Assembly: GCA_009919275.1 (NCBI GenBank)
Contig: RGCG01000009.1
Span: 1 to 45,890, forward strand
Length of the DNA stretch: 45,890 bases
Source of the DNA: Actinomycetota bacterium
GTDB taxonomy: Bacteria; Actinomycetota; Acidimicrobiia; Acidimicrobiales; Ilumatobacteraceae
Direction of reading: 5' to 3'
Part shown: positions 31,483-45,695 of the stretch, piece by piece
Numbering within the stretch: the first letter of the stretch is position 1
How the letters are laid out: each line of letters starts with the position of its first letter
Translations under genes and position numbers: made by a program
Notes under the pieces: model-generated
Told to the model about the DNA's origin: nothing
Database searches by the model: none
Seen by the model: the letters and a program-made list of their open reading frames with translations, nothing else

Positions 31483-32271
31483 GTGTCCATCGCCGCCTCG
31501 TTCAACCGTGATTCATCGGACGAGGCCATTCTGTACGCGTTGCGAAACGTGGCGAATGTTGCACAGCTCACCATTTCGGCCGCACGGGACTGGTCGCTCA
31601 CCGGAGCGCAACAGGGTCAATACGCTGCCGATGTTTTCGTGAATGACGCAGTCATCTCGGCTCTGCGCGAATTCGGTTGGGGAGTCCTCAGCGAAGAGTC
31701 CGGGGCCGACGGATTCGATGCTTCGCAACCGGCCGAACTCGGCGAGCAACTCGTCGTCATTGTCGACCCCATCGACGGCAGTACCAACGCCAGCCGTGGC
31801 AATGCGTGGCATGCCGTCTCTCTCTGTTGCGTCGACCGCGACGGACCACGGGTCTCGGTGGTTGCCCAACTCGCTCCGCCCCACACCGAGTACACCGCCA
31901 TTCGCGGAAAGGGTGCTTGGAAGAACGGGCTCGCCCTTCAGAAACCAACGACACGCAATTTCGACGAATGCGTGGTCGGTGTCTCGGGGCCACCGCCCGA
32001 ACAGCCGGGGTGGTGGCAATTCCGCGCCAACGGTGCCGCTGCCCTCGATCTCTGCCTCGTCGCCGACGGCGGCCTCGACGCATATCTCGACTGCGACCAG
32101 CACGGCGTCTGGGACTACGCCGGGGCTGCTCTCGTCTGCACCGAGGTCGGCATCACCATCGCCGACGCACGCGGCCGCGATCTCTTCCCCCTTCGCCACG
32201 CCGAGCGCCGCACGCCCATCGCCGCGACGTCGCCCGACGTTCTCGATCGGCTCGTCGCCTTGCGGCACTAG
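31483..32271 (+). CDS. Inositol monophosphatase family protein
   Basis: A 262-residue Mg-dependent phosphatase of the IMPase/FBPase/CysQ superfamily. The metal motifs are EESG (about 67-70), VDPIDGSTNASRG (the DPIDGT motif with Ser) and WDYAGAALVCTEVG near the C-terminus. Substrates could be inositol phosphate (for mycothiol or phosphatidylinositol), histidinol phosphate (HisN) or fructose bisphosphate; sequence alone does not decide. HisN is of interest because hisB here lacks a phosphatase domain. GTG 31483 follows TACCTT by 6 nt. Confidence 0.85.
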   Translation: MSIAASFNRDSSDEAILYALRNVANVAQLTISAARDWSLTGAQQGQYAADVFVNDAVISALREFGWGVLSEESGADGFDASQPAELGEQLVVIVDPIDGSTNASRGNAWHAVSLCCVDRDGPRVSVVAQLAPPHTEYTAIRGKGAWKNGLALQKPTTRNFDECVVGVSGPPPEQPGWWQFRANGAAALDLCLVADGGLDAYLDCDQHGVWDYAGAALVCTEVGITIADARGRDLFPLRHAERRTPIAATSPDVLDRLVALRH

Positions 32272-32323: not shown

Positions 32324-35300
32324 ATGTCGCTGTTCAAGAAAATCCTCGTCGTTGGTTTGATTGTTTCGTCGACAGCCACGTCGGGTGTCGCTTCGACTTT
32401 GGCCCAAGGTCCGGCGGGTGGGACGACCACCGCCTTGAGTGCCGCCGGGCAGAAGCTCGCGGTTGGAAGCGCCCACGCTTGTGCCATTGTCGAATCGCAG
32501 GTCTACTGCTGGGGTGACAACGCCGAGGGCCAATTGGGAACGCTCGACTCGAGCGTGACAGCGAGCAACGTTCCCATTCTCGTGCCCGGCATTACGAGTG
32601 CGATCGCGGTCACTGCCGGATATGCGCACACCTGTGCGCTTCTCGCCGATGAGACCGTTTGGTGCTGGGGGTCAAACCAGTCGAAAAACTTGGGACGCCC
32701 AACCGGCACAAACGGAACGCCCGCCGCGGTGTCTGGACTCTCTTCCGTCAAGGCGATCTCGGCGGGAAACGCAACAACTTGCGCGATCGTTGGCGCGTCA
32801 CGTGGTGTGAAGTGTTGGGGTGCCAACACCGGCGCCACGGGGTCGATGCTCGGGCGAACCACGGGCAGTTCGAGTGCCGATCCGGACCCGACGCCCGGTG
32901 ATGTGACGGGTTTGACATCAGGCGTGAATGCGTTGTCGGTGGGGCAGGGAAGCGCGTGTGCGCTGATGGTCGACAAGACGCTCAAGTGTTGGGGTTCGAA
33001 TTGGGAAGGTCGACTGGGCGACGACACCAACGTTGCGACGACCGACACATCTGGTCCCGTTTCGGTTTACGGTCTGACGAATGTGAGCGCCGTTTCTGTT
33101 GGTGCCGCCCACACGTGCGCGATAGTCACGTCGGGTCAGGTCTTCTGTTGGGGTCAATGGGAATCGGGACAACTCGGCATTGACCGTGGTATCAACGACA
33201 TCGTCGAAATCACCTCTCGGGGAAGTGGACGACGCCCACTGGAAACGCTTGATGCCCGTTCGTCAAGCAACAATCTTCTGAACGGCCAGGCGATCAGCGC
33301 CGGCAGTTCTTTCTCATGTGCGGTGAGGACAACTGGTGCCATCTCGTGTTGGGGATTGAACAGTTCGGGCGAACTGGGAACAGGTGGAAAGAGTGCGTAC
33401 GTCCTTGCACCGGTGTCAGTCTCCGGCTTTAACGACGCTTCTATCGTCGCCGCTGGAAGTTCTTTTGCGTGCGCTATGTCAACGACGGCAGTCGTGAAGT
33501 GTTGGGGAGCGGGCGGATTCGCATCAAACTCCGGTCAAATCGGCAACGGTTCCAATACAGAGTCGCTGACCCCGGCAACCGTTGTCGGCGTGGCGCCGCA
33601 GTCCATCGCCTTTGCCTCTTTGGCCGACAAGTCGGCATCCGATCCGGCGTTCGCGGTGAGTGCAACTGCATCCTCGGGCGGGGCAGTGTCGTTTGCGTCG
33701 ACGACCACGTCCGTCTGCACTGTCTCGGGCTCAACGGTCACGCTTGTCGCATCAGGCACGTGCACGATTTCGGCCTCGCGCGCCGCTTACGGCCTCTACA
33801 GGGCCGCCGACGCCGTGTCGCGGTCGTTCACAGTCGCAGGACTGAAGCCAACTGCGACGACGGGTACTGCAAGCGCGGAAACAACCACGGCAACGTTGAA
33901 TGCCGAGGTGAATGCCAACGGCGCCGACACGACGGTGACGTTTCAGTACGGCACGAGTGCGACTTTGGCGACATCGGAGTCGGTTGCGGTGTCCGCTGCT
34001 GTGACGGGCGCGACGGCAAAGGCGGTGAGTGCCGCGATCGCCAAGCTGACACCGGGTGCGACGTACTACTACCGGGTGTCGGCGACGAATTCGCTCGGCT
34101 CAACGACTGGCGATATCAAGTCGTTTTCGACGAGAGGATTGAAGCCGACCGCAACGACGGGTACCGCAAGCGCGGACACGACTACGGCAACGTTGAATGC
34201 CGATGTCAATGCAAACGAGCTCGATACAGCCGTGACCTTCCAGTACGGCACGAGCGCGACTTTGGCGACAGCGGAGTCGGTCGCGGTCTCCACGGCAGTG
34301 ACGGGGGCGACGGCAAAAGCGGTCAGTGCATCGGTATCGAAGTTGTCGCCGGGCACCACTTACTTCTGGCGGGTGGTGGCAACGAATGCGATCGGCTCGG
34401 CAACGGGTGACATCAAGTCGTTCACGACGAAGGGCTCGAAGCCAACGGTCTCGACCGTGTCGGCATCGCGCGGTACCTCGGGTATGACCTTGAACGGCAA
34501 GGTGAACGCAAACAATCTCGATACGACGGTTCGTTTCGAGTACGGGACGAGCGCAACCCTGGCGGGCGCCCAACAAACCGCTGCAAAGACGCAAACCGGA
34601 GCGACGGAAGAAGATGTGAGCGCGGCCATTTCAGGTTTGGCCGAGAACACCACCTACTACTACCGCATCGTGGCGTCGAACGACCTCGGCACCGCCACCG
34701 GCGAGACAAAGAGCTTCACGACCGTCGGACCGGAGGGCGTGTCGATCAACGACGGTGACGAGTTCACATCGAGTGCAAAGGTCGTCATCTCTGTTGTCGG
34801 CCCGCCGAACGCGGCACGAATTCAGGTGGCGAACGACGGTGGCTTCAAGAACGCAACAACTTTTGACCTGATCGATGGTTCGGCCGATGTTCCGTGGACC
34901 TTGGTGGTCAGTCGGGACGGCACGTTCACCAAGACGGTCTACGTGCGGTTCCTCTCCAGGTTCAATTCGAAAGTGACCGATGACAAAACCGACGACATCA
35001 TCCTCGATACGTCGAAGCCGAAACTGGAGACAGTGGCAGCCACTCCGGTTGCCGCACCTTCGTCGGCGGTGACCGTTTCGGCGGTTCGGGCCAAGGCGAA
35101 AGGGGCTTCGGGCGTCCGGCTTTCGGTTCGGGCTGTCGACACCATCTCCGGTGCGGTGGCCATCGAAGTGCGCAGTGCGGCGAACAAGCCTTCGATTCGG
35201 GTGCCCCTGGGTAAGGCTCCGTCGAAGGTGAAGACGGTGGGCCTACCGCGTCAGACGAACGCGACGGTGACGCTGCGGTCCGGTGCCACGACCCTGCAGA

Positions 35301-35362
35301 TACGCGCCGTTGACGGAGCGGGCAATATGTCGGCGTGGGTCAGAGTCGCCGTCAAGAAATGA
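32324..35362 (+). CDS. Secreted RCC1-propeller/FN3-like protein A
   Basis: A 1012-residue exported protein. Residues 1-28 form a signal peptide (FKKILVVGLIVSSTATSGVA). RCC1-type repeats (about 40-425) carry the recurring HxCAL/CAI...V.CWG.N..GQLG pattern with two Cys per repeat. A bacterial Ig-like domain (about 425-505) and three FN3-like repeats of exactly 99 residues (about 506-802) follow. The end domain starts PEGVSINDGDEFTSS and finishes IRAVDGAGNMSAWVRVAVKK. No LPXTG, lipobox or C-terminal membrane segment is seen, so attachment is unknown. ATG 32324 is the only start that gives a signal peptide; extension upstream would run into the phosphatase gene. Its stop overlaps the downstream lipoprotein start (ATGA). 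Confidence 0.85.
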   Translation: MSLFKKILVVGLIVSSTATSGVASTLAQGPAGGTTTALSAAGQKLAVGSAHACAIVESQVYCWGDNAEGQLGTLDSSVTASNVPILVPGITSAIAVTAGYAHTCALLADETVWCWGSNQSKNLGRPTGTNGTPAAVSGLSSVKAISAGNATTCAIVGASRGVKCWGANTGATGSMLGRTTGSSSADPDPTPGDVTGLTSGVNALSVGQGSACALMVDKTLKCWGSNWEGRLGDDTNVATTDTSGPVSVYGLTNVSAVSVGAAHTCAIVTSGQVFCWGQWESGQLGIDRGINDIVEITSRGSGRRPLETLDARSSSNNLLNGQAISAGSSFSCAVRTTGAISCWGLNSSGELGTGGKSAYVLAPVSVSGFNDASIVAAGSSFACAMSTTAVVKCWGAGGFASNSGQIGNGSNTESLTPATVVGVAPQSIAFASLADKSASDPAFAVSATASSGGAVSFASTTTSVCTVSGSTVTLVASGTCTISASRAAYGLYRAADAVSRSFTVAGLKPTATTGTASAETTTATLNAEVNANGADTTVTFQYGTSATLATSESVAVSAAVTGATAKAVSAAIAKLTPGATYYYRVSATNSLGSTTGDIKSFSTRGLKPTATTGTASADTTTATLNADVNANELDTAVTFQYGTSATLATAESVAVSTAVTGATAKAVSASVSKLSPGTTYFWRVVATNAIGSATGDIKSFTTKGSKPTVSTVSASRGTSGMTLNGKVNANNLDTTVRFEYGTSATLAGAQQTAAKTQTGATEEDVSAAISGLAENTTYYYRIVASNDLGTATGETKSFTTVGPEGVSINDGDEFTSSAKVVISVVGPPNAARIQVANDGGFKNATTFDLIDGSADVPWTLVVSRDGTFTKTVYVRFLSRFNSKVTDDKTDDIILDTSKPKLETVAATPVAAPSSAVTVSAVRAKAKGASGVRLSVRAVDTISGAVAIEVRSAANKPSIRVPLGKAPSKVKTVGLPRQTNATVTLRSGATTLQIRAVDGAGNMSAWVRVAVKK
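33841..34731 (+). repeat. Three tandem 297-bp FN3-like units in protein A
   Basis: Each unit encodes a KPT-x-x-T opening, a QYGTSATL/EYGTSATL middle and a TYYYRV/TYFWRV-GDIKSF ending. The segment around GACATCAAGTCGTT recurs at 34110 and 34407, exactly 297 bp apart. Confidence 0.75.
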
Positions 35363-37482
35363 TTCGTCATCGCGGGGCGTTTGCCCTTGTATCACTTCTG
35401 CTGTTCGCATCGTGTGGAGGAGGCGGCGGGGGAGGCGGCGCAGCTGACGTCACCGTGCCGGCGGCAACGGGCGAGGACCAGTCCTCGGGTCTGATACCAA
35501 ACCCGAACGGCTTCGCCTTTCCCAACTTCGGTTCGGCCGCAACGCCCGAGGTGTTCAACGAGGCCGACCTGGTCGAGATGTTCGGCAACACGCCCGATGT
35601 TTGCGTTGACGGTGCCGATCCGTGTGTGGCCACTGCCGAAGCTGCGGGATGGGCGCGAATGGTGAACGAGTCGCGAGCGGCGGGTCACTGCGAGGGTTTC
35701 GCCGTTCTTGCCGCATCGCGGTTCATGGCTGCCGAGCAACCGAACACTGTCGAGCTTGTGAACCAGGGCGACGTGACCCATGCCTTGATGCGGGGTTTCG
35801 CCACGCAGTTCTTCGACGAAACGAAGGACGCAACGAAAGCGATTGTGAAGAAGTCGATGCGCGACAAGGTGGCGATTCTCGAGGCCGCATTTGCCAAAAA
35901 GAAGGTCGGCGACGTGGTGGGCGTCTACAGCGAGGTCGGTGGACACGCATTGCTGCCCTATGCGATCACCTACGAGTCGCCCGATGTCGCCAAGATCATG
36001 GTCTACGACTCGAACTGGCCCGGGCAAGAGCGCTTCATCACCGTCGACATGGTCGCCGGAACCTGGACGTTCCCATTCTCCGGGGCCGACCCCGCCAATG
36101 ACCCGACGGCGTGGACGGGCGACACGAAGGATTTCGACATCGCCCCCTACGACGCGCGCATCGCAGGGAAGTGTCCATTCTGCAAGGGCGAGACCGCAGC
36201 ACGCCAGACGCTCCTTGTCATTCGCTCGGTTGCCGCCGACTGGTCGATCGAAACCTCAGCGGGAACGTTGACACCCGGTAGGAACGATATGGGCGAAGCG
36301 ACGGTGCGCCCCATGAGGTCGTCGGCGCCCGCGAACGGTGAGAAGGGGCCGTTCGACTACTTGGTGACCATTCCGGCCGGAGAGACGGTCACGGTGAACA
36401 TGCCATCGCTCACACGAATCACCGGTACGACGAACCGCGCGACGATCCAGATTGACTCTCCGGGATCGAAAGACGAGCCCGTCACGGTTTCCGAGGACGA
36501 AGTCACCACCAACGATCCTGCGACGGTCATCACCCTTGCCGACCAGAACTTCGTCGCCACTTCGAACGGAGCGAACAACACCGTGAGCACCGACGGAAAC
36601 CAGGTGACGGCGACGGTCAACGGTGCCGATGGAAACCAGATCTCGGCAACTGCGAACGAGGAAACCAAAGCGGTCGAAGTTCGCACACCGGGTCGAGATG
36701 GTGTCGCCGACGACACGAACTACGAACTCATCACCCAAACTGATCCCGGTCAGCTCGAGCGCAAAGTCGTCACCCGGGACGGCGGCGAAACGGTGACAAA
36801 CGAGCAAGGGACTCTGGCGAATCGTCAGGTGTACCAAGAGCCGCCGAACGATTTGAAGGCGCCAGACGTAAAGACCGGCTTGCCGTCTGCTGCGAGCAGA
36901 GCAATTGGTTCAGCGGCAACGGCAACGACCACCACGTCAAGTACAACCACCACGGTTGTTGCGGCAACGTCCACGTCGACCAGCACAAGCACCAGCTCCA
37001 CGGTCGTCGGACCCGACACTACGGGTCCCGCTGAGGTGACGACCACCGCACCGCGTGCAACACCCACAACTGCGGCGGCGCCTCGAACGACAACCGCGCA
37101 AAACGCAAACGCGCGAAAGAACGTGACCATCTCGTCGAATCTCGACAACTGGTCGCTCGACCTCGCCAATCCGACATCAAGTGGATTCACGGCGGGTCTT
37201 TCGGGCGGACTCGGTCAGCTCGACAACGCAGATCGTTGCACCGATGTGGCATGTCTCGAAACATCCGCCGCCACGATCCTGGGCGGGGGAGTCGATCCGG
37301 CGACCGGACAAGAGACGGTCGTGCCGGTGACCTTCTCGATGCGCGGAGCCGCCGGGCCCTTCAGCATCAGATGTGGTGCCGGTGGCAACTGGGTCGCGGC
37401 ATCCAACAACGGTGGGACGTATGGCGCCACATGCTCGTTTGCGAATGTCACTTCCGACGAGGCGGTGTACCTGCGCGCGTAG
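35359..37482 (+). CDS. Lipoprotein with conserved Cys/His/Asp-Ser-Asn, paralogue A
   Basis: A 707-residue lipoprotein. The lipobox LFASC puts the lipidated Cys at 19, followed by eight Gly. The conserved core (about 45-265) has C111 in AGHCEGFAV, H196 in GGHALLPYAI and D217-S-N219 in VYDSNWPG, in the order and context of papain/C39-like peptidases; C82 and C89 may form a disulfide. A CPFC motif (about 274) is unique to this copy. A long beta-rich stalk, a Thr/Ser-rich linker (about 520-580) and an extra C-terminal domain with four Cys follow. It is translationally coupled to RCC1 protein A. The family is unnamed to me; peptidase activity is inferred. Confidence 0.72.
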   Translation: MIRHRGAFALVSLLLFASCGGGGGGGGAADVTVPAATGEDQSSGLIPNPNGFAFPNFGSAATPEVFNEADLVEMFGNTPDVCVDGADPCVATAEAAGWARMVNESRAAGHCEGFAVLAASRFMAAEQPNTVELVNQGDVTHALMRGFATQFFDETKDATKAIVKKSMRDKVAILEAAFAKKKVGDVVGVYSEVGGHALLPYAITYESPDVAKIMVYDSNWPGQERFITVDMVAGTWTFPFSGADPANDPTAWTGDTKDFDIAPYDARIAGKCPFCKGETAARQTLLVIRSVAADWSIETSAGTLTPGRNDMGEATVRPMRSSAPANGEKGPFDYLVTIPAGETVTVNMPSLTRITGTTNRATIQIDSPGSKDEPVTVSEDEVTTNDPATVITLADQNFVATSNGANNTVSTDGNQVTATVNGADGNQISATANEETKAVEVRTPGRDGVADDTNYELITQTDPGQLERKVVTRDGGETVTNEQGTLANRQVYQEPPNDLKAPDVKTGLPSAASRAIGSAATATTTTSSTTTTVVAATSTSTSTSTSSTVVGPDTTGPAEVTTTAPRATPTTAAAPRTTTAQNANARKNVTISSNLDNWSLDLANPTSSGFTAGLSGGLGQLDNADRCTDVACLETSAATILGGGVDPATGQETVVPVTFSMRGAAGPFSIRCGAGGNWVAASNNGGTYGATCSFANVTSDEAVYLRA

Positions 37483-37524
37483 GGACTGCTTGCGTAGTTC
37501 TCTGAACTGAACAAGGATTCAGGG

Positions 37525-40500
37525 ATGTTCCGCACCCGGTCGTTGGCCCTTGCCTTGTTCCTCGTCGTCTCGGGCGTCGTCGTGCAAGCGCCTATCGTCA
37601 ACGCTGACCCGGCAGGTATGCCTTCCGCCGTTCGCGCCGAAGCCCAACGTCTGTCCGTTGGTCGCACAACCGCCTGTCTCGTTGCGAGTTCGAAGGTGTA
37701 TTGCTGGGGGAACGGCGGGGACTCACGCATCGGCACGCCAAGCGACACCACCGTGGAGAGTCCGCGACTCGTGGCTGACGGACCAACGGATGCAACCGCC
37801 GTTGCGGTTGGTAAGGATCATGCGTGCGCGCTGCGTGCCACGGGCCAAGTGTTCTGCTTCGGTCGCAACATCTACGGGCAGCTGGGTTCCGGCGTTGTGA
37901 GCGCCACGTCGAACACGCTCGCGTCACCGGCTGACTTCACGCAAATCGTCGCGGGCGATGACTACACGTGTGGATTGTCAACATCGTCCGGCGTGATGTG
38001 TTGGGGGCTCAACGCTGGGGGCCTTTTGGGTGGAGTACTCGGTGTCGACAAGGCAATAACCCCGAGTTCGGCGATCCCACTTGTTATCAGCATGGGTGCT
38101 GACACCGCAGTCTCACTCGCCGCGGGCGGCGCCCATATCTGTGCGCTGCTCGCCTCCACGAAAGTGAAGTGTTGGGGTGACAATGCGACAGGACAACTCG
38201 GCGACGGTTACGGCAACAACATCAATGACTCCCCATCAACCCCCGAAGTCTTTGGGCGCGTGCCGCACTACGTCATTACGAGCGGGTCGAGCCAGTACGA
38301 CCCGTCGAAGCATCTCTCCGGCGTCACCGCAATCAGTGCCGGCCTTTCGCACAACTGCGTCGTTCTCTCGTCGGGCGAAGGGCGCTGCTGGGGAGCCGGC
38401 ACGTATGGTCAGCTTGGCGGCGGGATGGCTTCTGGCGGCGTCAACTTGTGGCCGGTCGTGGTCATGGGGTCCTCCAGCGGGCCTCCACTCTCCGATTTGA
38501 AGGGGGTTTCCGCAGGCGATTCGAATTCGTGCTTTGTTCGACAATCGGGTGTCGTGGCGTGTGCGGGCGATAACACCTACGGGCAAATCGGGAACAGCAC
38601 CGCCGGGGCGTCGCACGAGTTCGTCCCGCTGAATGTCACTTCGACAGCATCCGGAATGAACAATGTCGTTTCGGTCGGAGTTGGGTCGGCCTTCGCCTGC
38701 GCTCTCACCTCGACGGGTCGGGCGTATTGCTGGGGTCGGGGCGACAACGGCCAAATCGGCAATGGCGCGACACTCGCAATCAATATCGCCCCGACTGCAA
38801 TCGCAGGCGGGGCGTCGCAGACGATTTCGGTGACGGTGCCAACGACGAAGGCGATCAGCGACGCGCCATTCACGGTCAGTGGAACATCGACCAGCGGCGG
38901 GACGGTGACGTTCGCCAGCATCACGACGAGTGTGTGCACGGTTTCGGGCGTGACGGTGACGTTGGTGAACATCGGAACGTGCACCGTTCGGGCTTCTTCA
39001 GGTGCCACGGGGGTCTACGTGGCGGCAGCCGATGTTGACTCGTCGATCACGGTCAGCGCAGCGCAGCCCCAGGTCAGCACCGGTTCGGTGACCGGTCTCA
39101 CCGTGACCTCGGCAACCCTCACGGGTGTCGTCAACGCGCGAGGTGCTTCGACCACACCGACTTTCGTTTACGGCACATCGGCGACGCTTGCGTCGGGCAC
39201 GACATCAGTGTCCGTGGCGGTAGTCACGGGCGTGATCGACGCCACCGCGACCACGTCGTTGACGTCGCTTCTTTCGGGGGTCACGTATTACTACCGACTC
39301 GACGCGACAAATGCCCTTGGCTCGACTTCGAGTGACATCAAGTCGTTCACGACAAAGGGCACAGCGCCGACGGTGACCACCGGGGCAGCAACGGCCGACA
39401 CCACCACAGCAACGTTGGCGGGCGAGGTGAACGCGAACGAGGTCGATGCCACGGTGTCCTTCGAATACGGAACGAACCCCGCGTTGGTTGGTGCCGAATC
39501 GGCGCCGGTTGCCACGGCAGTGACGGGCACGACCGCTTCTGCGGTGTCGGCGTTGATCTCGAAGCTGGCCCCGGGCACCACATACTTCTTCCGTGTGGTG
39601 GCGGCGAATGCCGTGGGAACGTCGCGCGGTGACATCAAGTCGTTCACGACAAAGGGCACAGCGCCGACGGTGGCGACGGGTTCGGCGGTTCCCGATGCTT
39701 TTGGCGCGACGGTTGCGGCCGAAGTGAACGCGAACGGGGTCGACACGACGGTGTCCGTCGAATACGGAACGAACGCCACGCTGGTGGGCGCCGAGACGGC
39801 GGCAGCTGCACTGGCGGTGACGGGATCGACGACGAAGATGGAGTCGGTGTCAATAACGAAATTGACCCCAGGTACCACATACTTCTTCCGGGTGGTGGCG
39901 GTGAACGCCGTGGGAACGTCGCGTGGTGACATCAAGTCGTTCACGACGAAGGGCGCAAAGCCCACGGTGACGACGGGGTCCGCGACACGTGGTACGTCGG
40001 GTATGACGGTGAACGGCAAGGTGAATGCACGTGACCTCGAGACGTCAATCCGGTTCGATTACGGGCTCGACGCCAAGTTGGTCGGCGCCCAACAGACCGT
40101 GGCCAGAACGCAGACCGGCGCCGACGACGCCGACATCACAGCGGTGATTTCCGGTCTGGCCGAGAACACCACCTACTACTACCGCATTGTTGCGGTGAAC
40201 GTGCTGGGCACAACCGAGGGCGAAATTCGCAGCTTCACGACTCTGCGCCCCGAAGGCGTGTCAATCAACGACGGTGACGAGTTCACTTCGAGCCAGGAAG
40301 TGGTTGTCTCGCTCGTTGGCCCGTCGACCGCCGTGAAGGCGATTTTGTCGAACGACGGAGGCTTTAAGACGTCCGAAACGTTCGACCTCGTGAACAACGC
40401 GGCCGAAGTCAAGTGGAAGTTGCAGTCGAGCCGCGAGGGAACGTTCACGAAAATCGTCTACGTGAAGTATGTGACGCGTTTCGGTTCACAACTGCAGGCG

Positions 40501-40875
40501 GTCACTGATGACATCATTCTCGACACCACAAAGCCAGTGGTTGCCGAGGTGACCGCGGCAGTGGCTGCGCCGACGGGAAGCGCGGTTCAGGTGGCGCGGG
40601 CAAGCGGCGCGAAGGCGCCGAAAACGTCCGGTGGTGTGCGTTTGTCGCTTCGTGGTAGCGACACAATTTCGGGCATCGGAAAAATTGAAGTTCGTAGCGC
40701 AGCAAACAAGCCCACTTCATCGATCCCGGTGTCGCGAGTGGCGGGCAAGGCCGACGGCAAGCCACGGGCGGCATCGCAGACCGTGACGTTGCGCACGAGT
40801 GCAAAGCGACTGCAGGTTCGTGTGATCGACCGGGCCGGCAACGCATCGGCGTGGCGGACGATCGTCGTCAAGTAG
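37525..40875 (+). CDS. Secreted RCC1-propeller/FN3-like protein B
   Basis: A 1116-residue paralogue of protein A. The signal peptide covers about 1-27 (LALALFLVVSGVVVQAPIVNA). RCC1 repeats (about 40-425) again carry HACAL/CALT...YCWGRGDNGQIG-type units. An Ig-like domain (about 429-510), four FN3-like repeats (about 513-908) and the same end domain (PEGVSINDGDEFTSS ... VIDRAGNASAWRTIVVK) follow. It has one FN3-like unit more than A. ATG 37525 has AAGGA upstream and lies 42 nt after the lipoprotein A stop, possibly on the same transcript. Likely a surface adhesion or scaffold protein; no enzyme domain is seen. Confidence 0.85.
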   Translation: MFRTRSLALALFLVVSGVVVQAPIVNADPAGMPSAVRAEAQRLSVGRTTACLVASSKVYCWGNGGDSRIGTPSDTTVESPRLVADGPTDATAVAVGKDHACALRATGQVFCFGRNIYGQLGSGVVSATSNTLASPADFTQIVAGDDYTCGLSTSSGVMCWGLNAGGLLGGVLGVDKAITPSSAIPLVISMGADTAVSLAAGGAHICALLASTKVKCWGDNATGQLGDGYGNNINDSPSTPEVFGRVPHYVITSGSSQYDPSKHLSGVTAISAGLSHNCVVLSSGEGRCWGAGTYGQLGGGMASGGVNLWPVVVMGSSSGPPLSDLKGVSAGDSNSCFVRQSGVVACAGDNTYGQIGNSTAGASHEFVPLNVTSTASGMNNVVSVGVGSAFACALTSTGRAYCWGRGDNGQIGNGATLAINIAPTAIAGGASQTISVTVPTTKAISDAPFTVSGTSTSGGTVTFASITTSVCTVSGVTVTLVNIGTCTVRASSGATGVYVAAADVDSSITVSAAQPQVSTGSVTGLTVTSATLTGVVNARGASTTPTFVYGTSATLASGTTSVSVAVVTGVIDATATTSLTSLLSGVTYYYRLDATNALGSTSSDIKSFTTKGTAPTVTTGAATADTTTATLAGEVNANEVDATVSFEYGTNPALVGAESAPVATAVTGTTASAVSALISKLAPGTTYFFRVVAANAVGTSRGDIKSFTTKGTAPTVATGSAVPDAFGATVAAEVNANGVDTTVSVEYGTNATLVGAETAAAALAVTGSTTKMESVSITKLTPGTTYFFRVVAVNAVGTSRGDIKSFTTKGAKPTVTTGSATRGTSGMTVNGKVNARDLETSIRFDYGLDAKLVGAQQTVARTQTGADDADITAVISGLAENTTYYYRIVAVNVLGTTEGEIRSFTTLRPEGVSINDGDEFTSSQEVVVSLVGPSTAVKAILSNDGGFKTSETFDLVNNAAEVKWKLQSSREGTFTKIVYVKYVTRFGSQLQAVTDDIILDTTKPVVAEVTAAVAAPTGSAVQVARASGAKAPKTSGGVRLSLRGSDTISGIGKIEVRSAANKPTSSIPVSRVAGKADGKPRAASQTVTLRTSAKRLQVRVIDRAGNASAWRTIVVK
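39064..40250 (+). repeat. Four tandem FN3-like units with exact 297-bp period in protein B
   Basis: A 44-bp segment beginning GTGACATCAAGTCGTTCACG at 39332 is repeated identically at 39629, and its first 25 bases again at 39926, each 297 bp apart. The same sequence occurs in protein A at 34407. The near-identity points to recent duplication or gene conversion. Confidence 0.8.
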
Positions 40876-40881
40876 CCGTCG

Positions 40882-41580
40882 TTAACCGACTGCGGCGCCG
40901 AACAAGCTGCCAACGAGCATGGTGAAAGCCATGGCAATGATGCCGCCGATGACGATGCGGCGCACCGAGACTCGTTTGCTGGCTTTGCCGTAGTGAGCGC
41001 CGAACGACCCGAGAGCGACAAGCGCGGCAATTGATACGGCAAGAGTGATCCAAATCCGTGCCGCGGTTGACGACCCGAGTGCAACGGCGATCACGGGCAT
41101 GACGCCACCCAAACCGAAGGCGATGGCTGAACTGACCGCGGCCTGAACGGGCTGTGCGCGATTCTGATCGGTGATGCCCAGCTCTTCGGCGAGGTGAATC
41201 TTCAGGGCATCTTTCTTGGTCAGTTCCGTCGCAACCTCGCGGGCCAGGGCATGGGGCAGACCTTTGTCCTGGTAGATCGCGGTGAGTTCGGCAAGTTCAC
41301 GCTCGGGGGTGTTTTCCAACTCCCATGTCTCTTTTGCGATATCGGAAAGTTCCGAGTCGCGTTGCGAGCTGACGGAGACGTACTCGCCGAGGGCCATCGA
41401 TGCGGCTCCGGCCACGAGGCCGGCCGTACCCGCGGTGAGGATGGCGTTGCGGCTGGCATCGGATGCGGCAACTCCCAACACGAGACAGGCGATCGAGACG
41501 ATGCCGTCGTTGGCGCCCAACACCATCGCGCGCAAGACGCCGACGCGGTGACTTGCGTGGCCTTCGTCGTGCTGCGCCAT
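40882..41580 (-). CDS. VIT1/CCC1 family transporter
   Basis: A 232-residue membrane protein of the vacuolar iron transporter/Nodulin-21-like family. The first helix region has MVLGANDGIVSIACLVLGVA, followed by ASMALGEYVSVSSQRDSE. A cytoplasmic metal-binding helical segment rich in Glu (about 75-130) and three more membrane helices follow. The family moves Fe2+ or Mn2+ out of the cytoplasm. ATG 41580 is preceded by TAGTTT with a 6-nt gap. It is convergent with RCC1 protein B (6 nt apart). Confidence 0.88.
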   Translation of the reverse strand: MAQHDEGHASHRVGVLRAMVLGANDGIVSIACLVLGVAASDASRNAILTAGTAGLVAGAASMALGEYVSVSSQRDSELSDIAKETWELENTPERELAELTAIYQDKGLPHALAREVATELTKKDALKIHLAEELGITDQNRAQPVQAAVSSAIAFGLGGVMPVIAVALGSSTAARIWITLAVSIAALVALGSFGAHYGKASKRVSVRRIVIGGIIAMAFTMLVGSLFGAAVG

Positions 41581-41586
41581 GACAAC

Positions 41587-41592
41587 AAACTA
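41587..41592 (-). promoter_or_regulatory. -10 box TAGTTT, leaderless promoter of the VIT gene
   Basis: Minus strand TAGTTT (41592-41587) ends 6 nt before ATG 41580. Confidence 0.5.
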
Positions 41593-41658
41593 CCGATCAC
41601 GAAGGACAAGACGTCACTCGATTCGGCATCGCGTCGCTGATCGGGCTTGACTCGTGAC

Positions 41659-42714
41659 GTGTCCGCCCCACAGATGTCACGACGGGCCCTGATCGGGTCG
41701 GGAATCGCGACCGTGGTCGGCGGTTCGGTGTTCCTCGCCCTCATCAACCGCGGCTCGGGCGATGTGCCGACCGGCACGAATCTCGCCGACGATGTCATCG
41801 ACCTTCGGAGTCCAACGCCAGAGACCGTCGACAGTTTGGAGTACCTCACGCCGCAGTCCGACTTCTTCATCATCGACACGGTCGGCAAGATGCATCCGCG
41901 CCTCGCGACCGGCGATTGGTCGTTGCGGATTCACGGGATGGTCGAGCGCGAGGTGACGTTGAGTCACGCCGACGTCGCAGCAATGCCGTACGTCGAACAC
42001 GTGGCAACGCTTGGGTGTGTGTCGAACAAAGTGGGTGGCGACCTCATCGGAACGGCGAAATGGGGCGGTGTGTATCTCGCCGACGTTCTGAAGACGGCCG
42101 GCGTCGACCCGAAAGCCGAACAGCTTGTGAGTCGCAGCGCCGACGGTTGGACGTGTGGCACGCCGGTGTCGGCGGTCCTCGACGGGCGCCCCGCGCTTCT
42201 TGCGACGCACATGAACGGCGAGCCGTTGACGACCGAGCACGGTTTTCCCGTTCGCATGATCGTGCCCGGTCTCTTCGGTTTCGTTTCGGCAACGAAGTGG
42301 GTGACCGACATTTTCGTCACCACGTGGGACGCCTTCGATCCGTACTGGCTGCAGCGCGGTTGGGCCCGCGAGGCGCCGATGCTCGCGTCGAGTCGTATCG
42401 ACGTGCCGCGGGCAAAGAGCCAACATTCGGCCGGACAAGTGGTGTTCGGCGGATTCGCCTGGGCCCCGCGTGCGGGTGTCGGCAGCGTCGAGGTTCGTGT
42501 CAACGACGGCGAGTGGGTGGGGGCCACGATCATCGAACAGGAAAACGGTGACTCCTGGGCGCTGTGGCGGGCCGAGCTTGCCATGGTCGGCGGCCAACAC
42601 AAGGTTGCGGTTCGGGTGATCGACCGCGATGGTGCAGCACAAGTGGAAGACGAGCGCGACGTTCTGCCGAGTGGGGCGACGGGTCTCCACGAGATCGAGA
42701 TCACGGTGGCATAG
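41659..42714 (+). CDS. Sulfite-oxidase-like molybdopterin protein (Tat-exported)
   Basis: A 351-residue molybdopterin oxidoreductase. The N-terminus has SRRALIGSGIATVVGGSVFLAL, a Tat-type twin-Arg signal with hydrophobic core. The Mo-binding domain has the likely Mo-ligand C120 in LGCVSN, then KWGGVYLADVL, GEPLTTEHGFPVRMIVPG and TKWVTDI. A C-terminal Ig-like dimerisation domain (GFAWAPRAGVGSVEVRVNDG) follows. GTG 41659 is preferred (TTGACT ends 6 nt upstream); ATG 41674 would leave SRRALIG right at the N-terminus. No cytochrome partner is adjacent. The substrate could be sulfite or another oxo-compound. Confidence 0.85.
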   Translation: MSAPQMSRRALIGSGIATVVGGSVFLALINRGSGDVPTGTNLADDVIDLRSPTPETVDSLEYLTPQSDFFIIDTVGKMHPRLATGDWSLRIHGMVEREVTLSHADVAAMPYVEHVATLGCVSNKVGGDLIGTAKWGGVYLADVLKTAGVDPKAEQLVSRSADGWTCGTPVSAVLDGRPALLATHMNGEPLTTEHGFPVRMIVPGLFGFVSATKWVTDIFVTTWDAFDPYWLQRGWAREAPMLASSRIDVPRAKSQHSAGQVVFGGFAWAPRAGVGSVEVRVNDGEWVGATIIEQENGDSWALWRAELAMVGGQHKVAVRVIDRDGAAQVEDERDVLPSGATGLHEIEITVA

Positions 42715-42738
42715 TCCGGTCGGCACCCGTTAGGGGCG

Positions 42739-42769
42739 CTGACACATTCGCTACGAGAGGTACTAAGGT
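42739..42769 (+). promoter_or_regulatory. Candidate promoter of the FG-GAP lipoprotein gene
   Basis: CTGACA (42739-42744) with either TACTAA (42761-42766, 16-bp spacer) or TAAGGT (42764-42769, 19-bp spacer) as -10. Unlike most genes here it would leave a leader of about 20-30 nt, and an AGGGGA ribosome site is present before ATG 42798. Confidence 0.35.
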
Positions 42770-42797
42770 GCTTCCAACTCGCACGACAGGGGATTCC

Positions 42798-43832
42798 ATG
42801 ACACGTACGTCGCTCTTCCGCACCGTCACAGCCGCAACCGCGGTTCTGGCGGTTTCCGCAACCCTCGCCGCCTGTGGCGGCGGCGGTTCATCCGATTCGT
42901 CCACCGAGTCGACGCGGGTGAAGAACAACGCCTTCACCACGGTGCCAAGCGACGGCGGCGCGCCGACGACGCTCTTTGACTGGACCGGCGGTTCGTCAAC
43001 CACTGTCGCCGGTGGCACCGACACCACTGCAGCTCCCACCGATTCGACGGCAGCGCCCACCGACTCAACCGCGGCCCCAACCGACTCGACAACGGCGGTC
43101 GGCGACACCACCGTGCCGGCGGCAGGCAATACCACGGTTCCGGCCGCAACGGCCGGTGAAGCCATTTCGCTCGTGCAGTCAAAGGGGCAAAGCGGCGACG
43201 CATTCGGTGGGGCCGTCGTGCTGTCCACCGACGGAAGCACGCTCGCCGTCGGTGCCCTCTACGCCGACGTGAACGGCAACGCCGACCAGGGTTCGGTCAC
43301 CGTTTTCACACGCTCGGGTGGTAAGTGGGCCGAGCAGGGTGTCCTCACCGTTCCCGGCGCAGCCAACGATTGGTTCGGCTATTCGATCGCCATGTCATCG
43401 GACGGCAGCACCATCGCCGTCGGCGCGGTGTACGCCACCGTGAACGGCAACAAGGCACAGGGCAGCGCCTCGGTCTTCGCGCGCTCGGGTGGTAAGTGGG
43501 CGCTCGAAAAGACGGTCACGGGTAAGGACGGCGCTGCAGGAGACCTCTTCGGTTACTCGGTCTCGCTCTCCGCTGACGGTGCAACGCTCGCCGTCGGTGC
43601 AACCGGATCCGATGCAGGTGGCAACGCCGACCAGGGCAGCGCAAGTGTGTTCACTCGTTCCGGTGGCTGGGCACTTCAGGCCACGTTGACCACGGCGACA
43701 CCCGCGGCCAAGGCAAACTTCGGTACGTCGGTGGCATTGTCGGCCGACGGCAACACTCTCGCGGTCGGCGGTCCGAATGCGGGCGCCGGAGCAGCAAACG
43801 TGTTCACCCGCGCCAACGGCGCGTGGTCGTAG
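42798..43832 (+). CDS. FG-GAP/beta-propeller-repeat lipoprotein
   Basis: A 344-residue lipoprotein: signal with lipobox LAAC, then four Gly and a Ser/Thr-rich stretch, a Thr/Pro linker with three PTDSTAA units (about 75-100), and an FG-GAP-like region. The latter has about four repeats of roughly 57 residues (LS-x-DG-x-TLAVGA...QGSVTVFTRSGG-KW). DNA repeats CGCTCGGGTGGTAAGTGGGC at 43311 and 43482 (171 bp apart) mark the unit. Four visible units are fewer than the seven blades usual for such propellers. ATG 42798 has AGGGGA 4 nt upstream. It lies just upstream of lipoprotein paralogue B. Confidence 0.8.
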   Translation: MTRTSLFRTVTAATAVLAVSATLAACGGGGSSDSSTESTRVKNNAFTTVPSDGGAPTTLFDWTGGSSTTVAGGTDTTAAPTDSTAAPTDSTAAPTDSTTAVGDTTVPAAGNTTVPAATAGEAISLVQSKGQSGDAFGGAVVLSTDGSTLAVGALYADVNGNADQGSVTVFTRSGGKWAEQGVLTVPGAANDWFGYSIAMSSDGSTIAVGAVYATVNGNKAQGSASVFARSGGKWALEKTVTGKDGAAGDLFGYSVSLSADGATLAVGATGSDAGGNADQGSASVFTRSGGWALQATLTTATPAAKANFGTSVALSADGNTLAVGGPNAGAGAANVFTRANGAWS

Positions 43833-43874
43833 GCAACAGTCGGGTGGTCGAGTCGACGCATGAAGGGTGACCAT

Positions 43875-45695
43875 ATGAGAACGAAACGACGTGTCTTCGC
43901 CGCAACCGCATCGCTCGCGCTTCTCGCCGCCTGTGGCGGTGGTGGCGGCGGCGGTGGTGGTGCTGCGAGCGATGGCGGTGGCGACAACAATGCTGCCGAT
44001 ATCACCGTCCCCGAAGCCAAGGGTGTCAATGTCGACCTGGGCCTGGCGCCGAACCCGAATGGATTCGCATTTGCGAACTTTGGCGCGGCCGCTTCCCCCG
44101 AAGTCTTCGGCGCCGACGACCTCGTCGCCATGTTCGGCAACGGCCCAAACGTGTGTGTGGATGGCAAAGAACCCTGTCAACCCACCGCAGAAGCAGCCGC
44201 ATGGGCCGCGATGGTCAACGACAACCGCGCAGCCGGTCACTGCGAAGGCTTCGCCGTGCTATCAGCGAACCGTTTCTCCGCAGGAAAGACCCCGCCGAGC
44301 GTGCAGTTGACCATGGACCCGACGGTCACCAAAGACATCATGCGCGCGTTCGCGACGCAGTTCTTCCAGTCAACCCAGGAAGAAACCATCGCGTGGCAGG
44401 GCAAGTCGCTGAAGGACAAGGTCGCCGCGCTCGAATCTGCGTTCGCGAGCAAGAAGGCCATCTACACCCTTGCGATCTACACGGCCGAGGGTGGACACGC
44501 CGTCCTTCCGTACGCGATTGAATACACCAGCCCCGACGTGGCGAAGATCAAGATCTACGACTCGAACTGGCCAGGTCAAGACCGCTGGGTCACCGTCGAC
44601 TTGGCAAACGAAACATGGACGTTCCCGTATTCGGGCGCCGATCCGAACAACGACCCCGCGGCGTGGTCGGGAGGACCAAAAGACCTCGATATCACGTCGA
44701 TGACCGCGCGTGACTCGGCAACGGTTCCATTCGGAAGTGGCGATGGCGAAGTGACGAAGTCACTCCTCCTCGTGCGCTCGGCTGCACTGAACTGGAGCGT
44801 CACCACACCGAGCGGTGTCGTTCGTCCCGGCGAATTGGCACCTGCCGGTGTTTCGATTCGTCCGGTCCGCTCGTCGGCCGCCAACGGCAAGGGCGCGCCC
44901 ACCGACTACATGATCTTCGTTCCCGCCAACCAGAAGCTCGAGTTCAACCTTCCCGACGCGACGCGCGTCTCGGGCATCACGCCCAAGGCCGCCATCCGCA
45001 TCGAGACGAAGGGCTCGAACAAGGGTCCGGTCGAGGTGACCGAGAGCGGTGTCAAGGCAGATGACCCGAATGTCGTCTTGTCGCTGGCCGACGGCAACCT
45101 CGTTGCTTCGTCCAACGGCGCGGGCAACCAACTCTCGTCGACCGGTAGCCAGATCGACGTCAACGTCACTGCGCCGAACGGCGAGCAGGTATCGGTGGCC
45201 GTCACTCCAGAAGCGCCGGCTGTCGATGTCCGCACGCCGGGCCGCGATGGTGTCGACCCCAACGCGAACGTTGAAATTCTCACCCAGAAGGGTGCGAATG
45301 AAATCGAGCGCAAGACCATCGATGCCACGGGTAACGAGACCGTGACCACCGAGCAGGGTCAGTTGGAGAACACGCAGGTCAATCGTCCAATGCCGGCCGA
45401 GCTCGAGGCTCCCGTCACAAAGCCAGGCTTGCCGTCGCGTGACGAGCGTGTTGCCGAGGTAACTCCGGCGGCGGGCGCTCCGACAACTGTTGCTGGCGCA
45501 CCGGCGACAACGGTCGCAAGCGCAACGGCAACAACGGTCGCGGGCTCGGCGCCAACGACGTTGGCCGAAGCTTCACCCACAACCGTTCCGGCCGGTCAAC
45601 CCACGACAACACTCGCGGTTCCGCCGGCAACGGCTCCCGCGGGCGCCGGTGGGCTCCCACCGCTACGGCCAGTAGCAACGGTGCCGGGCGGCTAG
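43875..45695 (+). CDS. Lipoprotein with conserved Cys/His/Asp-Ser-Asn, paralogue B
   Basis: A 606-residue paralogue of the lipoprotein at 35359-37482. The lipobox LLAAC is followed by nine Gly. The core has the same motifs in the same order: AGHCEGFAV (Cys near 123), GGHAVLPYAI (His near 208) and IYDSNWPG (Asp/Asn near 229-231), plus a Cys pair near 94 and 101. The beta-rich stalk matches through VRTPGRDGVD and TTEQGQLENTQV. It ends in a Thr/Ala/Pro-rich tail and lacks the extra four-Cys C-terminal domain of copy A and the CPFC motif. ATG 43875 is preferred over ATG 43860, with AAGGGTGA upstream. Confidence 0.72.
   Translation: MRTKRRVFAATASLALLAACGGGGGGGGGAASDGGGDNNAADITVPEAKGVNVDLGLAPNPNGFAFANFGAAASPEVFGADDLVAMFGNGPNVCVDGKEPCQPTAEAAAWAAMVNDNRAAGHCEGFAVLSANRFSAGKTPPSVQLTMDPTVTKDIMRAFATQFFQSTQEETIAWQGKSLKDKVAALESAFASKKAIYTLAIYTAEGGHAVLPYAIEYTSPDVAKIKIYDSNWPGQDRWVTVDLANETWTFPYSGADPNNDPAAWSGGPKDLDITSMTARDSATVPFGSGDGEVTKSLLLVRSAALNWSVTTPSGVVRPGELAPAGVSIRPVRSSAANGKGAPTDYMIFVPANQKLEFNLPDATRVSGITPKAAIRIETKGSNKGPVEVTESGVKADDPNVVLSLADGNLVASSNGAGNQLSSTGSQIDVNVTAPNGEQVSVAVTPEAPAVDVRTPGRDGVDPNANVEILTQKGANEIERKTIDATGNETVTTEQGQLENTQVNRPMPAELEAPVTKPGLPSRDERVAEVTPAAGAPTTVAGAPATTVASATATTVAGSAPTTLAEASPTTVPAGQPTTTLAVPPATAPAGAGGLPPLRPVATVPGG

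Follow-up and report, generated by a model that had tools for sequence, protein, structure and literature searches.

The stretch of 45,890 nucleotides analyzed here (the window; contig C216) belongs to the 2.18-Mb metagenome-assembled genome (MAG) of an uncultured, freshwater-type actinobacterium and encodes two related lipoproteins beside secreted repeat proteins, raising the question of what these lipoproteins are and whether their neighbors are working partners. A sequence-only reading had proposed a repeated cassette, in which a propeller gene upstream supplies the exchangeable recognition part and the lipoprotein downstream the constant part of an envelope system. The relevant genes are the following:

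31483–32271, plus strand: inositol-monophosphatase-like gene, context marker; family by sequence reading
32324–35362, plus strand: RCC1 A, 1012 aa; secreted RCC1 propeller carrying FN3-like repeats, with a conserved domain at its C-terminus
35359–37482, plus strand: lipoprotein A, 707 aa; core at 35491–36318; LLFASC as lipobox
37525–40875, plus strand: RCC1 B, 1116 aa; second secreted RCC1-FN3 propeller
40882–41580, minus strand: VIT1-like gene between the two lipoprotein units; assigned by eye
41647–42714: molybdopterin oxidoreductase between the two lipoprotein units; assigned by Pfam
42798–43832, plus strand: FG-GAP_2 lipoprotein, 344 aa; KNNAF motif at 42915–42934
43875–45695, plus strand: lipoprotein B, 606 aa; alternative start at 43860; core at 44043–44870

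The gene arrangement described in the earlier reading is borne out. The TGA stop codon of RCC1 A overlaps the ATG of lipoprotein A in an ATGA at 35359–35362, and the FG-GAP_2 lipoprotein gene ends 42 nt before lipoprotein B if the latter starts at ATG 43875 (27 nt for the in-frame ATG 43860). The partners belong to different families, as had been claimed: Pfam assigns RCC1 A (WD40_RLD, 1.7e-51; RCC1_2, 3.6e-40) and RCC1 B (WD40_RLD, 1.8e-54) to the RCC1 type, with RCC1 repeats exceeding the cut-off in both, and the third protein to FG-GAP_2 (1.9e-29; 102 bits against a cut-off of 23), with four to five repeats detected, which falls short of a demonstrated complete propeller. RCC1 B, which had been overlooked, starts 42 nt 3′ of lipoprotein A. 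Scans for promoters and terminators returned fewer sites than in shuffled sequence and were disregarded. An oxidoreductase of the same kind as that at 41647–42714, as judged by eye, also lies 3′ of RCC1 genes in two other loci (L042, L043).

Lipoproteins A and B share 50% identity over 548 residues (E 3e-164) and form one supported clade in the core tree (100/99). Their description as full-length paralogues has to be corrected in one respect: an additional C-terminal domain of ~114 aa in A has no counterpart in B. In lipoprotein A, the core is joined by a β-rich second domain, a Thr-rich linker, and this extra domain, while in lipoprotein B the β-rich second domain extends to ~45407 and is followed by a Pro/Thr-rich tail. 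The predicted catalytic residues are C111/H196/D217 in lipoprotein A and Cys123 (44241–44243), His208 (44496–44498), and Asp229 (44559–44561) in lipoprotein B. The Cys/His/Asp signature pointed out earlier is confirmed: Cys123, His208, Asp229, and Asn231 (numbered as in lipoprotein B) do not vary across 73 homologues, nor do two further cysteines and one glutamine. Sequence searches with single lipoproteins and with the core profile yielded no usable match in PDB, Pfam, or NCBIfam and place the core in no described family: lipoproteins A and B have no Pfam match at E ≤ 1, the core profile matched none of the PDB sequences, and 19 core members searched against Pfam and NCBIfam gave stray weak matches, with no family over its curated cut-off.

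Structure prediction points to a papain-like (clan CA) fold. AlphaFold returned good models of the two-domain protein (pLDDT 88.5, pTM 0.90) and of the core alone (pLDDT 83, pTM 0.83). The core model was the informative one; unrelated β structures dominated the fold search with the two-domain model, which was set aside. Each of the 50 VIA-align matches listed for this model is a papain-like enzyme or domain, among them SpeB, IdeS, cathepsins, and the C39 domain of PCAT1. The best match is staphopain (141 residues, 3.3 Å) with a Z-score of 8.9, a level of about 9 only moderately exceeding that reached by unrelated models. Foldseek with the same model gave weak E-values (best 8.6e-3), and the relationship to known peptidases is therefore distant. 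In the core model, Cys74 is located at a helix start, His159 in a strand, and Asp180 after the next strand. Hence, a Cys at a helix N-terminus, then a His, then an Asp/Asn are conserved at matching secondary-structure positions, as papain-like peptidases require. Upstream of the predicted catalytic Cys, where the oxyanion-hole Gln was sought, there is no invariant Gln; the position 8 residues before the Cys is a nearly invariant Asn, and the invariant Gln sits 39 residues after it. Because of the fold and the invariant triad, a papain-like cysteine peptidase with predicted activity is the best assignment for the core, and lipoproteins A and B are probably members of an unnamed family of secreted peptidases of this predicted type.

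The family has five loci in the genome of the window and occurs in 17 of 61 genomes searched, including 12 of the 13 members of the genus. In the one sampled genus member in which the core was not found (G004, 78% complete), RCC1, FG-GAP_2, and the lipoprotein motif described below were likewise not found. A core profile scan of GTDB genomes yielded 259 loci, of which 79 were kept, mostly from freshwater Acidimicrobiales-type MAGs and also from Lysobacterales, Deltaproteobacteria, Thiomargarita, and Chloroflexi, the organism names being as deposited and some of them clearly wrong. For instance, L133, L134, L145, L156, L159, and others derive from MAGs that bear the evidently mistaken name “Bifidobacterium breve” in their records. 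Core homologues devoid of the second domain (L166–L202), most of them single genes, were seen in Lysobacterales, Deltaproteobacteria, Thiomargarita, and Anaerolineales.

Comparison with sister species led us to discard a fixed cassette of upstream propeller and downstream lipoprotein. The gene order in these species is an inositol-phosphatase-like gene, lipoprotein A, and one to three RCC1 genes; no RCC1 A separates the inositol-monophosphatase-like gene from lipoprotein A (or its orthologue) there. In the genus, the conserved partner of lipoprotein A is the downstream RCC1 B, and the first RCC1 gene begins 42–69 nt after lipoprotein A wherever the genus has downstream sequence. RCC1 A is found 5′ of lipoprotein A in two species only (G000 and G003), and the FG-GAP gene precedes lipoprotein B in four only, while eight sister species have an FG-GAP orthologue without a core neighbor. 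The two pairings specific to the window, FG-GAP with lipoprotein B and RCC1 A with lipoprotein A, are recent.

The association itself reaches beyond the genus. In other genera, the core adjoins an RCC1 gene in L155 (16 nt) and a DUF5122/Rax2-like propeller lipoprotein in L173 (81 nt), with a similar arrangement in L163, while lipoproteins with Lcl_C repeats, which are not propellers, adjoin it in L136 and L161 and, within the genus, in L160. Among 48 genes comprising core and second domain, a same-strand RCC1, FG-GAP, or DUF5122 propeller is adjacent in 13 and RCC1 is fused in six, counts that are not independent, since orthologues and a duplicated locus (L037, present again as L124) are among them. 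As propellers make up only 9 of 581 non-adjacent genes in the same loci, chance pairing is unlikely. About half of the genes of the actinobacterial subfamily have neither a propeller nor an Lcl_C partner, many of them at contig ends. Genes without the second domain have a propeller neighbor in 2 of 46 cases, both 3′ of the same kind of giant gene. A usual lack of propeller neighbors, which would speak against the earlier proposal, is thus found among distant homologues in other phyla and not clearly in the actinobacterial subfamily. In the core tree, the partner types are spread over at least five clades, and the type follows the clade. Further, giant paralogues combine the core, Big_2 (Ig) domains, lectin-like LamG/PA14 domains, and many RCC1 repeats in one chain, some also with Lcl_C. 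The earlier proposal is supported in part: adjacency, fusion, and clade-wise partner types favor a constant lipoprotein with an exchangeable partner, which in one clade is an Lcl_C lipoprotein and not a propeller.

The giant paralogues (L035 10160–19999, L065 3–9866, L061 6220–16587) are open frames of 3,300 to 4,400 aa, and in several species a haloperoxidase/PAP2-like gene, assigned by eye, lies 5′ of them. A short core paralogue of 353–355 aa is coupled to a polyamine-binding-protein-like gene (L057, L058, L061, L078, L079, L084), in most cases with a 4-nt overlap and with no propellers in the context. By gene reading, the neighbors of other core paralogues are haloperoxidase-like, polyamine-binding-protein-like, or sulfatase-like genes.

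A second feature shared by many lipoproteins at these loci is a motif, [KR]N-x-[AS]-[LIF], located at a distance of 8–28 residues from the lipobox Cys. In the FG-GAP partner of the window, it appears as STRVKNNAF shortly 3′ of the lipobox (pattern match at 42915–42934; segment around KNNAF: TESTRVKNNAFTT), and further carriers are found in L048, L067, L099, L101, L119, L136, L146, and L173. Of 146 lipoprotein-like N-termini, 31 carry the motif no more than 36 residues away from the lipobox Cys. This frequency is inflated, since about twelve of these N-termini belong to loci retrieved with the motif itself; the other ~19 do not. At four downstream offsets in the same 146 N-termini the motif was not found, nor was the reversed pattern in the same interval. 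At the DNA level, the pattern R-x-K-N-x-A-L/F has 8 matches in the genome of the window versus 0 for the reversed pattern; this enrichment is limited to the genus and G021, in which both matches flank a core gene. Codons vary while the motif peptide is constant, which suggests selection on the protein. The carriers differ in their cargo domains (FG-GAP, Lcl_C, BNR, and, by eye, pentapeptide-like). The motif might be a genuine signal by which a class of actinobacterial surface lipoproteins, unrelated in their cargo, is sorted or processed, and the papain-like lipoproteins might act on it in a new display or shedding pathway; we consider this doubtful and quite improbable.

Our preferred reading, held with moderate confidence, is that of an anchored papain-like peptidase whose adjacent or fused secreted repeat partner supplies binding, targeting, or a scaffold and is exchangeable between clades. 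The N-terminal lipid would hold the peptidase on the external side of the membrane, with the second β-rich domain and then the flexible Thr/Pro-rich tail coming after it. In each clade of the actinobacterial subfamily, the partner would be a secreted repeat protein, either a propeller of the RCC1, FG-GAP, or DUF5122 type or a protein with Lcl_C repeats, and would most likely be the part that brings the peptidase to a cell-surface substrate. The joint lack of core, RCC1, FG-GAP_2, and motif in G004 agrees with this reading. The weak Foldseek E-values and moderate Z-score, the recency of the pairs in the window, the propeller-free surroundings of distant homologues, the other neighbors of some core paralogues, and the subfamily genes that have no repeat partner count against it. 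Genes, conserved triad, predicted fold, recurrent linkage and fusion, and clade-wise partner change are computed results; catalytic activity, physical contact, and targeting by the partner are what we infer.

Alternatively, the genes might lie close together only because surface proteins are co-expressed from an envelope-gene neighborhood, while peptidase and propellers act separately. This would be compatible with the RCC1 and FG-GAP genes that stand alone elsewhere in the same genomes, with the FG-GAP orthologues that have no core neighbor in sister species, and with RCC1 genes in the core-less genomes G013, G023, G041, and G046. We nevertheless regard this explanation as rather unlikely, since the association is repeated and clade-specific, includes direct fusions in one chain, and within the genus keeps its close spacing between lipoprotein A and RCC1. 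The adjacent, co-directional genes would also suit a peptidase that cuts the neighboring repeat protein, or the N-terminal tether of a lipoprotein, for maturation or release, much as LapG frees the adhesin LapA. The motif is placed as a processing site would be, in the tether between the lipid and the first domain, and it is present in FG-GAP, Lcl_C, and DUF5122 partners as well as in several core paralogues. However, the secretion signals of RCC1 A and B are of the ordinary kind and are not followed by the motif, its canonical form is missing from lipoproteins A and B themselves, and in the fused giants partner and peptidase already form one chain; processing or shedding of the partner is accordingly unlikely.

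Finally, the core might have a papain fold yet be catalytically inactive or serve a purpose other than proteolysis, for example as a covalent adhesin domain of the thioester type or as a transamidating enzyme located at an adhesin's base. The giant paralogues have an adhesin-like architecture, and the invariant Gln lies in a T-Q motif resembling the TQ motif of streptococcal thioester domains (PMC4450167). In thioester domains, however, Cys and Gln occur in a β context (PMC4450167), whereas the core has a predicted helix-start Cys with invariant His and Asp/Asn, its fold matches are peptidases, and it is membrane-proximal rather than at the distal tip. A thioester adhesin domain is therefore judged unlikely, and an inactive or non-proteolytic core in general is very unlikely.

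If the anchored peptidase with its swapped partners is real, the papain-like clan would gain an unnamed peptidase family, represented by more than 250 loci across several phyla, and the exchange of propeller and repeat partners may be how uncultured actinobacteria make their surface proteolysis modular. Moreover, the post-lipobox motif poses the testable question of whether monoderm actinobacteria use a lipoprotein sorting or processing signal beyond the lipobox. Neither the fold class nor the concept of coupling a protease to binding modules is new. The searched sources appear to hold no description of the family, of its anchored build with exchangeable partners, or of the post-lipobox motif: our literature search found no paper joining KNAAL and lipoprotein, none combining RCC1 and Acidimicrobiia, and no mention of the motif.

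Among known systems, LapG–LapA pairs a periplasmic peptidase with a giant adhesin, the peptidase gene being associated with large repeat surface proteins. The loci described here resemble it in tying a predicted peptidase gene to such proteins, but the LapG-type family was not detected, and here, in an actinobacterium, the predicted peptidase is lipid-anchored in its own right and in some cases joined to the repeats in one chain. The thioester-domain adhesins (TIE proteins) likewise carry a reactive Cys domain with a TQ motif on Ig-repeat surface proteins; they have LPXTG at the opposite end, whereas the lipoproteins here have the lipid anchor beside the domain, a helix-start Cys, and invariant His and Asp/Asn. 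Staphopain, SpeB, and IdeS share with the lipoproteins the predicted fold, the helix-start Cys followed by His and Asp/Asn, and secretion, although the core has no sequence similarity to them detectable in searches of PDB sequences and Pfam. In contrast to these enzymes, the lipoproteins of the window are lipid-anchored, carry an extra invariant Cys pair and a β-rich second domain, and are linked to repeat-protein partners.
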